Assembly: GCA_030537075.1 (NCBI GenBank)
Contig: JAUNOS010000001.1
Location: 218,079 to 282,078 of the forward strand
Direction: 5' to 3'
DNA: 64,000 nucleotides
Source of the DNA: Candidatus Saccharimonadota bacterium
GTDB lineage: Bacteria; Patescibacteriota; Saccharimonadia; Saccharimonadales; Saccharimonadaceae
Of this stretch, positions 33,308 through 35,515 are shown piece after piece. The stretch's first letter is position 1, and each line of letters opens with the position of its first letter. The notes beneath the pieces are model-generated. The model searched no databases. It saw only the letters and a program-made list of their open reading frames with translations, and was not told where the DNA came from. Position numbers and translations under genes: made by a program.

Positions 33308-33701
33308 GGGGCTGAAATAGCTTTCGACAATTGGACCTTATCAGGATATTTTGCGAACCGAATGTGCACGTTAAGCATGATGTTAATTGCAAACTTTACT
33401 GCAAAAGCAAAGGCATTCTTTGCGAGCTTGTCTCCAAAAATGGCCTTCGCACCAATCGCTGCTTAATTTAGCGATCGTCTCCTCGTTTAGGCAACATAGA
33501 GCGGGCGAGGTGTCATACGTATGTTGCTAGCTGTGTGTTCGGGCAGCGGCGAATGCGCGGGACTTTTTCCGCGTAACCTCCCACGTTTTTTCGACTTATT
33601 TTTGAGCGGCGGGTGGTTATAAATTTTTAAATAAGTCTATGTTCGTAGACGAATATCATGATACCAGTTGGACCCGGGGGCGGTACCCGGCAGCTCCACC
33701 A
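33308..33701 (+). ncRNA. ssrA: tmRNA with a 25-residue tag and a divergent T-loop
   Basis: 394 nt. The 5' GGGGCTG pairs with CAGCTCC before the encoded ACCA end, forming the tRNA-like acceptor. The tag frame resumes at GCA 33389 and ends at TAA 33464-33466, giving a 25-residue tag that begins ANFTAKAKAFF and ends FAPIAA; the Ala-Ala end is what tail-specific proteases recognise. Most tags are about 10-15 residues. The T-arm stem CCGGG/CCCGG is intact, but the 7-base loop reads GGCGGTA where nearly all tmRNAs have TTCRANN. A good terminator follows at 33714. Confidence 0.93.
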
Positions 33702-33735: not shown

Positions 33736-33763
33736 AGATTAAATTTGCGTGGGTGATATCAGA

Positions 33764-33796
33764 AAAAACAGCCACCTGCGAGTAGTGGCTGTTTTT
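33764..33796. terminator. Bidirectional terminator, end of a minus-strand small RNA unit
   Basis: 12-base-pair stem AAAAACAGCCAC / GTGGCTGTTTTT with a 9-base loop; T-run on both strands. Confidence 0.85.
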
Positions 33797-33858
33797 AAGT
33801 GGAGTTTTATGTGTTCTGTTTATTTTTGGCCTCTGTATAATTTTTTTATTCAGAAGCT
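33764..33858 (-). ncRNA. Orphan small RNA candidate
   Basis: A minus-strand unit of about 95 nt between a near-consensus promoter (33865-33893) and the terminator at 33764-33796. The body is A-rich and single-stranded before the hairpin and contains no ATG-initiated frame of any length. That combination is typical of a trans-acting small RNA. It could instead be a remnant leader. Expression data would decide. Confidence 0.45.
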
Positions 33859-33864
33859 ACCCCT

Positions 33865-33893
33865 ATAATATAGTACGAAAAAGCTTATGTCAA
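33865..33893 (-). promoter_or_regulatory. Near-consensus minus-strand promoter
   Basis: TTGACA (33888-33893), exactly 17 bases, TATTAT (33865-33870). A TATAAT on the plus strand overlaps the same bases, and a second one lies at 33836-33841. Confidence 0.7.
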
Positions 33894-34649
33894 CGCTTTT
33901 TGCGAAAAATCTTTAGGTAAAAAATACCACAGCATATGCCCTAATGAGTTACTGGGTTGCGACTCGTCTTTGAGTAATGAAACTGCGGTGCTGGGCGGAC
34001 GATATGTATTTGGGCGTGAAGTTGACTCTACTGTAGCGTGAGGTAGGTTCTTGCCGAGTAGCGATGTTATTGATCTTGCCAGCGGGTGGTGGGTTGCGAG
34101 AGGGCTAGTTGTGTTGTTGTCAGTATGTAAAAAGAAGCTTGCCATGTGGGTGATGTACTTGTAGCGCATGCCTCTTTGCTCCAGGCTCCCTAGACTGTTG
34201 GGCGGGTGATGAAAGTCCATTGATGCTTTGGGATGCTGTTCCATGGGCGGTGACTGCGACTGCGGCATTGGACTTGTTGCAGTCATGTTTTTTCTGTCCA
34301 GCATTGGGTAGGGGCTTGGAGCTATGCTATCTATGCAGATTTCCTTGTATTGGGCACGCGGTAGAGATCCCTCAAGCGCCCCTGCGCGTGAGAGTGATTT
34401 TGGGCCTGCTTGGGTTCGCTCCTGGCGGGGGCGGGGTACCTTTGGGTGGTCCCGTGGCGCAGACGATTAATCGCTCTTTCATGCGATGCTTCCGTGACCC
34501 TAAGCTAGCTGTAATATTGTGAATTGGTGCGAGTTACGTGTATTACTTACATCATTGTAATTTATACAATATTTAGTAAATAACAGATATAGATAAAGTC
34601 TGTAGCTACGTATAATGTAAAAATAACAATGCATTTTTTATAAAATTGA
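33894..34649. other. Stretch without a convincing gene
   Basis: About 750 bases. A minus-strand frame is open from 34466 to 33885 and a plus-strand frame from 34220 to 34522. Neither has a ribosome binding site, a promoter at the right distance, or a sequence I recognise, and both have protein composition that looks random (many His, Pro, Ser or Cys). The last 130 bases are very AT-rich. It could hold a decayed gene. I see no insertion sequence ends or target duplications. Confidence 0.4.
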
Positions 34650-34678
34650 TTGACTTTTTAACGTGAGCGTGATACCAT
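34650..34678 (+). promoter_or_regulatory. Promoter in front of the structured region
   Basis: TTGACT (34650-34655), 17-base spacer, TACCAT (34673-34678), the same two hexamers and spacing as the promoter of the 47-codon gene. Start expected near 34685. Confidence 0.65.
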
Positions 34679-34684
34679 TAGGAC

Positions 34685-35090
34685 AAGCTTTTACAAAAAC
34701 AAAAAGCAATAAAAAAATAATCACCTTAACAATCCCTTACGATGCACACGGCAGCTCACTCACTGGCGTACAGTCGGCCGCAGCATGGAATCTCCATGGT
34801 GCTGCCGATGCTCCGCCAAGCCCCGCCTTAGGGCGGTACGCGATGAGCGTTGAGCGCGCGCGATTAGTACCGCGCATATATCCAGTTAATCCCTGTGATA
34901 GGAAATTGTAGTGATACTACTGGATATATGCGCAGAGGAACTTTGCGCAAGGACATGCTCCTTACATAAGGAGCGGTCAGTTGCCCTCGAGCGACGACTT
35001 TCGGTTAGGACACCCGCGCCCATATAGTTATTGAAAAGCGGCGGATGGTTGTGTTCCACCACCCAATTGTAGTTGTCGCTCGGGCTCTCT
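34685..35090 (+). ncRNA. Candidate large structured RNA of unknown type
   Basis: About 400 nt downstream of a good promoter with no credible protein frame. It contains a 15-bp perfect inverted repeat (34872-34886 with 34919-34933, 32-base loop), a hairpin GCTCCTT-ACAT-AAGGAGC (34957-34974), a CATGG/CCATG hairpin (34784-34798) flanked by GCAG/CTGC pairing, GGCAGC (34750-34755) with GCTGCC (34801-34806), and a 10-bp long-range pairing GAGCGACGAC (34989-34998) with GTTGTCGCTC (35072-35081). The next gene has its own leaderless promoter, so this is not just its leader. No known RNA class was recognised. Confidence 0.4.
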
Positions 35091-35131
35091 TGATATCTCT
35101 CGTTATGTGTGAATGTGGTATAGTTAAGCAT

Positions 35132-35515
35132 ATGAAGTATGGATATACCGTAGCGTTATGTCTTATTGCCTGCTTATCTGCAGTCGCTATTTTGCACGTA
35201 ACATCGCCAAGTAGTGCTGGCCCTCTCATGGTGCTAGTATTTTTTATTTGCATATACGCGGCATCGGCATCGGCGCTATATATGGTAATGCTAGGGCTAA
35301 GAATGCTCGGCATGAGATTGCTTCCTGAGGGGGTGCATCGCAGGGCTCTGGGGGAGTTGCGCCCATTGAAATTATATTATTATGCGAGTGTTGCCGGCTT
35401 GGTGCCGGTTATTTTACTGGGAATGCAATCGATAGGCGGTGCGCGTGTATGGGATATCGTGTTATTGTTCCTGTTTGTCGGGCTGGGGTGGTTTTATATC
35501 GCCAAGCGCTTTTAA
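35132..35515 (+). CDS. Small membrane protein, four helices
   Basis: Codes for 127 residues with four hydrophobic segments (about 6-22, 30-52, 84-100 and 108-124) and a short basic loop between the second and third. TATAGT at 35119-35124 ends seven bases before ATG 35132, so the in-frame upstream start at 35045 is rejected. No family recognised. The following gene has its own promoter. Confidence 0.75.
   Translation: MKYGYTVALCLIACLSAVAILHVTSPSSAGPLMVLVFFICIYAASASALYMVMLGLRMLGMRLLPEGVHRRALGELRPLKLYYYASVAGLVPVILLGMQSIGGARVWDIVLLFLFVGLGWFYIAKRF

Follow-up and report, generated by a model that had tools for sequence, protein, structure and literature searches.

To our knowledge, few large structured non-coding RNAs (ncRNAs) are shared by a whole bacterial class, and those that are usually prove to be important machines. 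For one particular type, i.e. a large structured ncRNA encoded beside a membrane-protein gene, the precedent is OLE (ornate, large, extremophilic) RNA. The adjacency of ole to the gene of a membrane protein, whose function was then unassigned, led to the discovery that OLE RNA is bound by this protein, OapA, which has four transmembrane helices (PMC11332333). GOLLD and ROOL are described as further large, ornate bacterial ncRNAs (PMC12286853).

The window (the whole stretch of 64,000 nucleotides of Saccharimonadota DNA that was analysed) contains a candidate RNA that resembles OLE RNA in being large, structured and encoded beside the gene of a membrane protein with four transmembrane segments (4-TM protein). 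The two differ in size and host (~600 nt in Bacillota for OLE RNA, ~140–640 nt in Patescibacteria for the candidate) and in the neighbouring protein, since OapA is CNNM/DUF21-like, whereas the 127-aa neighbour of the candidate is without Pfam family or fold match. Moreover, the Rfam model of OLE RNA gave no match in any scan of the window or of the homologs. From GOLLD and ROOL the candidate is distinguished by being single-copy, chromosomal and placed in a conserved locus, as well as by the lack of an Rfam match. The first-pass annotation of this DNA, which was made from the letters alone, had proposed a new large structured RNA, and this reading is borne out by the homologs, by covariation, and by the lack of both a matching Rfam family and a conserved reading frame. 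The object is almost certainly a real structured RNA.

The candidate RNA and its promoter

The RNA and the elements that precede it are as follows:

34520-34649, plus strand: AT-rich control region ahead of the promoter, carrying operator-like boxes (TACAAC/TACATC) and their complements (GC content of 0.20–0.27, box enrichment)
34650-34678, plus strand: promoter TTGACT-17-(TG)TACCAT (direct reading, conservation in homologs)
34685-35089, plus strand: RNA of ~405 nt (fold z-score of -5.5, homologs, covariance-model match)

Direct reading places TTGACT at 34650-34655 and, behind a 17-nt spacer, TACCAT at 34673-34678, exactly the promoter annotated at first, to which a TG extension before the -10 box can be added. 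The arrangement TTGNNN-17-TANNNT with the TG extension is present in 34 of the 35 homologs in the window's family, with the 5' hairpin just downstream, and the consensus across homologs is TTGACN-17-TG-TANNNT. It is this conservation of the promoter that suggests that the locus is transcribed. The ends of the RNA are predicted, with the 5' start placed ~7 nt after the -10 box (TGCTANNNT) and the 3' end after the closing stem P7 (see below).

The upstream flank, previously described as very AT-rich, has a GC content of 20–28% across 34550-34699. TACAAC/TACATC boxes occur 66 times in 43 homologous upstream regions, compared with 10.3 ± 3.0 in a control of simple dinucleotide-block shuffles, and this approximately six-fold enrichment suggests regulation of RNA transcription, with a regulator probably binding the boxes upstream of the RNA promoter.

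No conserved reading frame was found, as the longest frames vary in length and position among the homologs, and tblastn searches with the open reading frames of the window gave only scattered, weak and strand-inconsistent matches. This agrees with the initial statement that these ~400 bases hold no credible protein frame.

Homologs and their distribution

BLASTn searches of 61 relatives detected the element within the genus (E-values down to 5e-37), while in other genera of the family it appeared as three short collinear blocks. A DNA pattern describing one conserved hairpin, applied to 84,980 species, gave ~33 loci in records of Saccharibacteria/Patescibacteria, and the remaining matches were scattered and of about chance number. 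Two covariance models were then used, both of which cover only the 3' part of the RNA and yield rough E-values (short calibration). R1, a model of the 3' domain built from 32 sequences, matched 81 of 198 genomes of the order. R2, built only from short forms (16 sequences, none from the window's family), matched 102 of 295 genomes of the class, and in a phylum-wide set 12 of 380 genomes, 11 of these 12 lying inside the class. The window itself is matched by R1 at 34951-35091 (E-value of 3.7e-22, with the window sequence included in the training set), and the best R2 match in the whole 64 kb is the candidate, at 34954-35067 (the region of hairpin P8; E-value of 0.13). There is one copy of the RNA per matching genome, except for a weak second match in G155. 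A phage collection contained no match to the candidate.

Outside the window's family the RNA is shorter (~140–320 nt). The promoter, the A-rich 5' hairpin and the final hairpin are retained in these short forms, as is a GCUC/GAGC hairpin with GGUCAGUCA behind it. For 15 genomes of the order that were missed by the models, the locus was found via the neighbouring ATPase gene and the RNA was judged by eye; it was recognisable in 12 (G009, G019, G036, G037, G038, G040, G045, G049, G060, G148, G160 and G165), divergent in two (G017, and G048 with an R2 E-value of 1e-4) and unseen in one (G055). In the rest of the class, R2 matches families f39 and f46, and an RNA-like stretch in the same position, with a terminal hairpin of the same design, is present in families f41, f42, f44, f45, f47 and f38, all called by eye save f42 (R2 E-value of 0.011). 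The model matches, the loci located through the ATPase gene and the stretches in other families together indicate that nearly every genome of the order has the RNA, and that the same probably holds for the class.

Comparative evidence shows a predicted structured RNA (~405 nt in the window) whose base pairs are conserved and that occurs once per genome throughout the class, with its own conserved promoter and no reading frame. It has survived genome reduction in nearly all of the genomes examined, which belong to tiny, parasitic epibionts and are mostly of 0.5–1.7 Mb, and it probably has a basic cellular role. Some relatives (Nanosynbacter) have been cultured.

Secondary structure and covariation

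The RNA at 34690-35110 folds with -154.9 kcal/mol, compared with -123.9 ± 5.7 kcal/mol for 100 dinucleotide shuffles, none of which folded as stably (z = -5.5). Among the strong pairings reported by the first-pass annotation, the perfect inverted repeat was confirmed over all 15 bp (34872-34886, GCGCATATATCCAGT, and 34919-34933, ACTGGATATATGCGC), the long-range stem closing over 93 bases was found at 34989-34999/35071-35081 and comprises 11 bp (annotated as 10 bp), and several hairpins are present in addition. The following elements were recognised:

34687-34707, plus strand: 5' hairpin P1, GCUUUU/AAAAGC, with an A-rich loop (covarying relatives)
34775-34807, plus strand: hairpin P3 (pairing compared with arm-exchange shuffles)
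34810-34855, plus strand: hairpin P4, GCUC-CGC/GCG-UU-GAGC, with the inner hairpin CCGCC/GGCGG (exchanges in relatives)
34866-34940, plus strand: arm P5, an AGUA/GGAA internal loop plus the 15-bp stem 34872-34886/34919-34933 (direct reading, relatives)
34957-34981, plus strand: hairpin P6, GCUCCUU/AAGGAGC, with the nearly invariant strand GGUCAGU behind it (covariation)
34983-35085, plus strand: closing stem P7, 34983-34999/35071-35085 (covariation)
35014-35048, plus strand: hairpin P8, CC-G-CGCC/GGCG-GAU-GG, with a AAUAGUUAUU-type loop (short-form covariation, R2 match)

Covarying homologs in other Saccharibacteria, which had been named as the evidence to look for, were found, and their scores lie above those of shuffled controls. 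The 3' domain has 93.6% of its cells paired, 12 of 21 pairs that have changed on both sides, and a covariation score of 0.441, compared with 0.197 ± 0.014 for shuffled alignments (0 of 500, although kinship among sequences alone can beat such shuffles without any structure) and at most 0.118 for slid structures. The short-form model, which is independent and based on distant relatives, gave 97.6% pairing, two-sided changes at 8 of 18 pairs, and a score of 0.279 compared with 0.117 ± 0.015 (0 of 500). Given the slid controls and the count of pairs changed on both sides, kinship alone is an unlikely account of the covariation.

P1 reads GCUUUU/AAAAGC, GGUUUU/AAAACC or GGUUU/AAACC in relatives and GUAAG/CUUAC in other families of the order, and P4 displays exchanges of C-G to U-A and of G-C to A-U; since the arms of P1 and P4 were picked for complementarity, their covariation counts are biased towards pairing. 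For P3, whose arms were located at a fixed offset from a GACGG motif, 166 of 176 pairs are formed, compared with 150.5 ± 2.4 when the arms are exchanged between species (0 of 2000). In P5, the flanks AGUACC...GRGGAA enclose a stem whose sequence differs among relatives, and the conserved AGUA/GGAA internal loop, as read from the sequence, resembles the loop-E motif. Two-sided changes were counted at 3 of 7 pairs of P6 (alignment A1) and at 9 of 14 pairs of P7, and in the short-form equivalent of P8 the outer stem covaries (7 of 12 pairs). A pairing of UCCGCC (P4) with GGCGGA (P8) was considered and rejected, as covariation favours the P4 hairpin. In several long homologs (L011, L016, L018, L046 and others) the 5' hairpin is followed by ACUGACC, the reverse complement of GGUCAGU, so a long-range helix is possible there, one that the window's genus lacks.

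The fold of the minus strand is almost as good (z = -5.0), as inverted repeats lead one to expect, so the fold by itself does not reveal which strand is the RNA. The same observation would suit a locus that acts as DNA, namely a palindromic recombination, replication or attachment site whose inverted repeats happen to fold. We regard this as very improbable. In the stems, G-U pairs are far commoner than A-C (69 versus 21, of which 15 at one position, and 22 versus 4), and this excess marks the plus strand as the structured RNA; furthermore, the promoter keeps its fixed 17-nt spacing just ahead of the 5' hairpin and the conserved internal loops are asymmetric.

Two segments of the RNA hardly vary and are predicted to be unpaired, namely the A-rich loop (CAAAAACAAAAAC in short forms) and GGUCAGU(CA). 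Along with the regulated transcription suggested by the operator-like boxes, this would fit a regulator that pairs with target mRNAs through one of them. However, the size, the number of conserved helices and the loop-E-like motif go beyond what is usual for pairing small RNAs, GGUCAGU could pair within the RNA in the many long forms that have the upstream ACUGACC, and no mRNA target was identified, so that a role of this kind seems rather doubtful.

Relation to known RNA families

Scans against Rfam 15 at permissive thresholds, performed for the window and for short and long homologs, gave chance matches only; the Rfam check recommended at the outset thus placed the candidate in no family. 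A search of the open-access literature found no report of an ncRNA of such kind in Saccharibacteria. The RNA is new as a family, with the reservation that absence from Rfam 15 and from the open-access literature is no proof that it has never been described, and if its function were OLE-like, it would be a new member of the OLE-like kind rather than a new type.

Three housekeeping RNAs bear a likeness to the candidate. 6S RNA is comparable in being single-copy, moderately long and driven by its own promoter, but RF00013 has no match at the candidate locus and none elsewhere in its own genome. SRP (4.5S) RNA is comparable in its universality within its group and in view of the membrane-linked neighbour of the candidate. 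The candidate, however, is without the helix-8 core; RF00169 matched none of 31 relatives (positive control 11 of 14), and the 61 genomes sampled from the class all lack the Ffh M domain PF02978, which the control detected in 14 of 14. tmRNA is a neighbour of the candidate in the window's family, but a separate and complete tmRNA lies at 33308-33701 (RF00023, 88.5 bits; missed by ARAGORN), ~950 bases upstream of the RNA, and RF00023 does not match the candidate.

As neither SRP RNA nor 6S RNA was found by Rfam in the genomes examined, it is conceivable that the candidate is a hidden, diverged copy of a housekeeping RNA (SRP RNA, 6S, RNase P or tmRNA). There is hardly any likelihood of this, given that RNase P and tmRNA are present separately, the RNA-binding domain of the SRP protein is absent from the class sample, the candidate has neither a 4.5S core (GGAA-capped helix 8) nor a long 6S-type rod with a central bubble, and no form tested matched Rfam. 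A 6S-like RNA with a sub-threshold score of 32 bits was observed in G038 (L160:1501-1654, minus strand), where RNase P and a ribosomal-protein gene (rpmB-like) flank it. Possibly this is what 6S RNA has diverged into in the group; as a homolog of the candidate it was rejected, being at a different locus.

Gene neighbourhood and the downstream membrane protein

The constant neighbour of the RNA is the small membrane-protein gene downstream:

35116-35124, plus strand: extended -10 TGG-TATAGT of the next gene, leaderless (conserved in relatives)
35132-35515, plus strand: 4-TM membrane protein of 127 aa, candidate partner, no Pfam family (homologs adjoining the RNA in two orders of the class)

The window's order has the arrangement comM (minus strand), RNA, 4-TM protein, proline-rich protein and VirD4/TraG-like ATPase, with tmRNA between comM and the RNA in the window's family. 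The first description of the RNA as lying downstream of tmRNA is therefore correct for this family, but incidental, because elsewhere in the order there is no tmRNA at this place. In other orders the sequence is trpS, RNA, 4-TM protein, pheS and pheT (trpS and pheST were named from their sequences, not by family search), and in G238 one gene is inserted between the RNA and the 4-TM protein. The RNA and the 4-TM gene thus keep a stable link although their other neighbours change.

The 4-TM protein matched no Pfam family (0 hits). Its AlphaFold model is helical and confident (mean pLDDT 90.7), and a Foldseek search of the PDB with this model returned nothing at E ≤ 0.001 (best E-value of 0.59). 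The protein is homologous across the class: an HMM of the window's family detects it in f39 with an E-value of about 1e-8, and in other families of the order with values from 1e-12 to marginal.

Throughout the class the RNA directly precedes the same gene and shares its strand, a position that would also suit a cis-acting leader, i.e. a riboswitch or attenuator that controls read-through at a terminator into the membrane-protein operon. The 4-TM gene is indeed separated from the RNA by an intrinsic terminator in 5 of 14 loci of other families and, for other families of the class, in 10 of 11 loci (in the window's own family, only 3 of the 42 loci show a classical terminator after the RNA), and some short-form species have no evident separate promoter for the next gene. 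On the other hand, the ATG of this gene is at 35132, and TGG-TATAGT implies a leaderless start, in line with the separate leaderless promoter initially assigned to it. An extended -10 within 28 nt of the ATG is present in 28 of 42 loci of the family, and such a box of the gene's own precedes the ATG in several other families. In addition, a whole gene intervenes in G238, 350–450 nt separate terminator and gene in one family, and no alternative terminator/antiterminator pairing was seen. A leader is accordingly unlikely. The promoter of the next gene and the terminators in between indicate that the RNA is most likely its own gene, and we infer with high confidence that it acts in trans, although the separate-gene reading may be less settled for some short-form species.

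Beyond the class, a profile of the 4-TM protein has weak matches in other Patescibacteria, and in four of the five loci read these adjoin pheS. Three loci from other Patescibacteria families (L221, L223 and L224) have an RNA-like stretch upstream of 4-TM/pheS, all with a C-rich-loop hairpin (e.g. GATTAGAAGTA-CCCCCCT-TATTTCTAATC) closely like one in the Saccharimonadia families f41 and f47. Family f46 has both the C-rich-loop hairpin and the R2-type final hairpin. In L222, from another class, the 4-TM gene stands beside pheS with no space for an RNA, which means that the 4-TM protein can exist without it. From these sequences, a phylum-wide RNA family is plausible.

Possible function

The explanation that we judge best overall, and consider likely, combines a structured RNA, a separate gene acting in trans and a ribonucleoprotein with the 4-TM protein. 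The precedent of the OLE–OapA adjacency, and the same outward form of the locus without homology, underlie our proposal of a membrane-linked ribonucleoprotein. Taken by itself, the idea that the RNA works in this way, as OLE RNA does with OapA, is an analogy and is put forward as a tentative possibility; of the single mechanisms considered it is nonetheless the likeliest, its main rivals being the pairing regulator and the leader. The RNA would fold into a stable protein-binding scaffold and, together with the 4-TM protein from the adjacent gene, would form a particle acting at or near the membrane; the A-rich 5' loop, the GGUCAGU strand, the AGUA/GAA internal loop and the AAUAGU..U-rich loop of P8 could be the contact sites.

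A broader version can be envisaged, in which a housekeeping RNA found across Patescibacteria forms a membrane ribonucleoprotein with the 4-TM protein, convergent with OLE–OapA and possibly concerned with membrane-protein handling without SRP. The lack of the Ffh M domain, the class-wide linkage and the stretches with C-rich loops in three genomes of other families are compatible with it, and we nevertheless consider it improbable. The locus also connects the RNA with an uncharacterised membrane protein, and with the question of how SRP-less cells manage their membranes.

A second, divergent element

Between the tmRNA and the RNA, a further conserved element is encoded in the opposite direction:

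33763-33893, minus strand: second conserved small RNA or leader, divergent (sequence conservation)

The stretch from 33932 to 34520, between this divergent small RNA and the AT-rich region, is a GC-rich spacer that is not conserved within the genus and holds no credible gene. The second element matches no Rfam family. Its promoter (TTGACA, 33893-33888, and TATTAT, 33870-33865) is followed by a 5' hairpin and an A-rich stretch. The complementarity of the A-rich loop CAAAAACAAAAAC of the candidate RNA to upstream GTTTTTGTTTTTG was rejected as evidence of a target, as the latter is the reverse strand of this second RNA or leader, which has the same 5' design. A hairpin, AACAGCCAC-TACTCGCA-GGTGGCTGTT followed by T's, is common to the second element and tmRNA, as a terminator. 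The element is 76–85% identical within the genus, and of 20 loci read from the order, 15 have a homolog upstream of comM.
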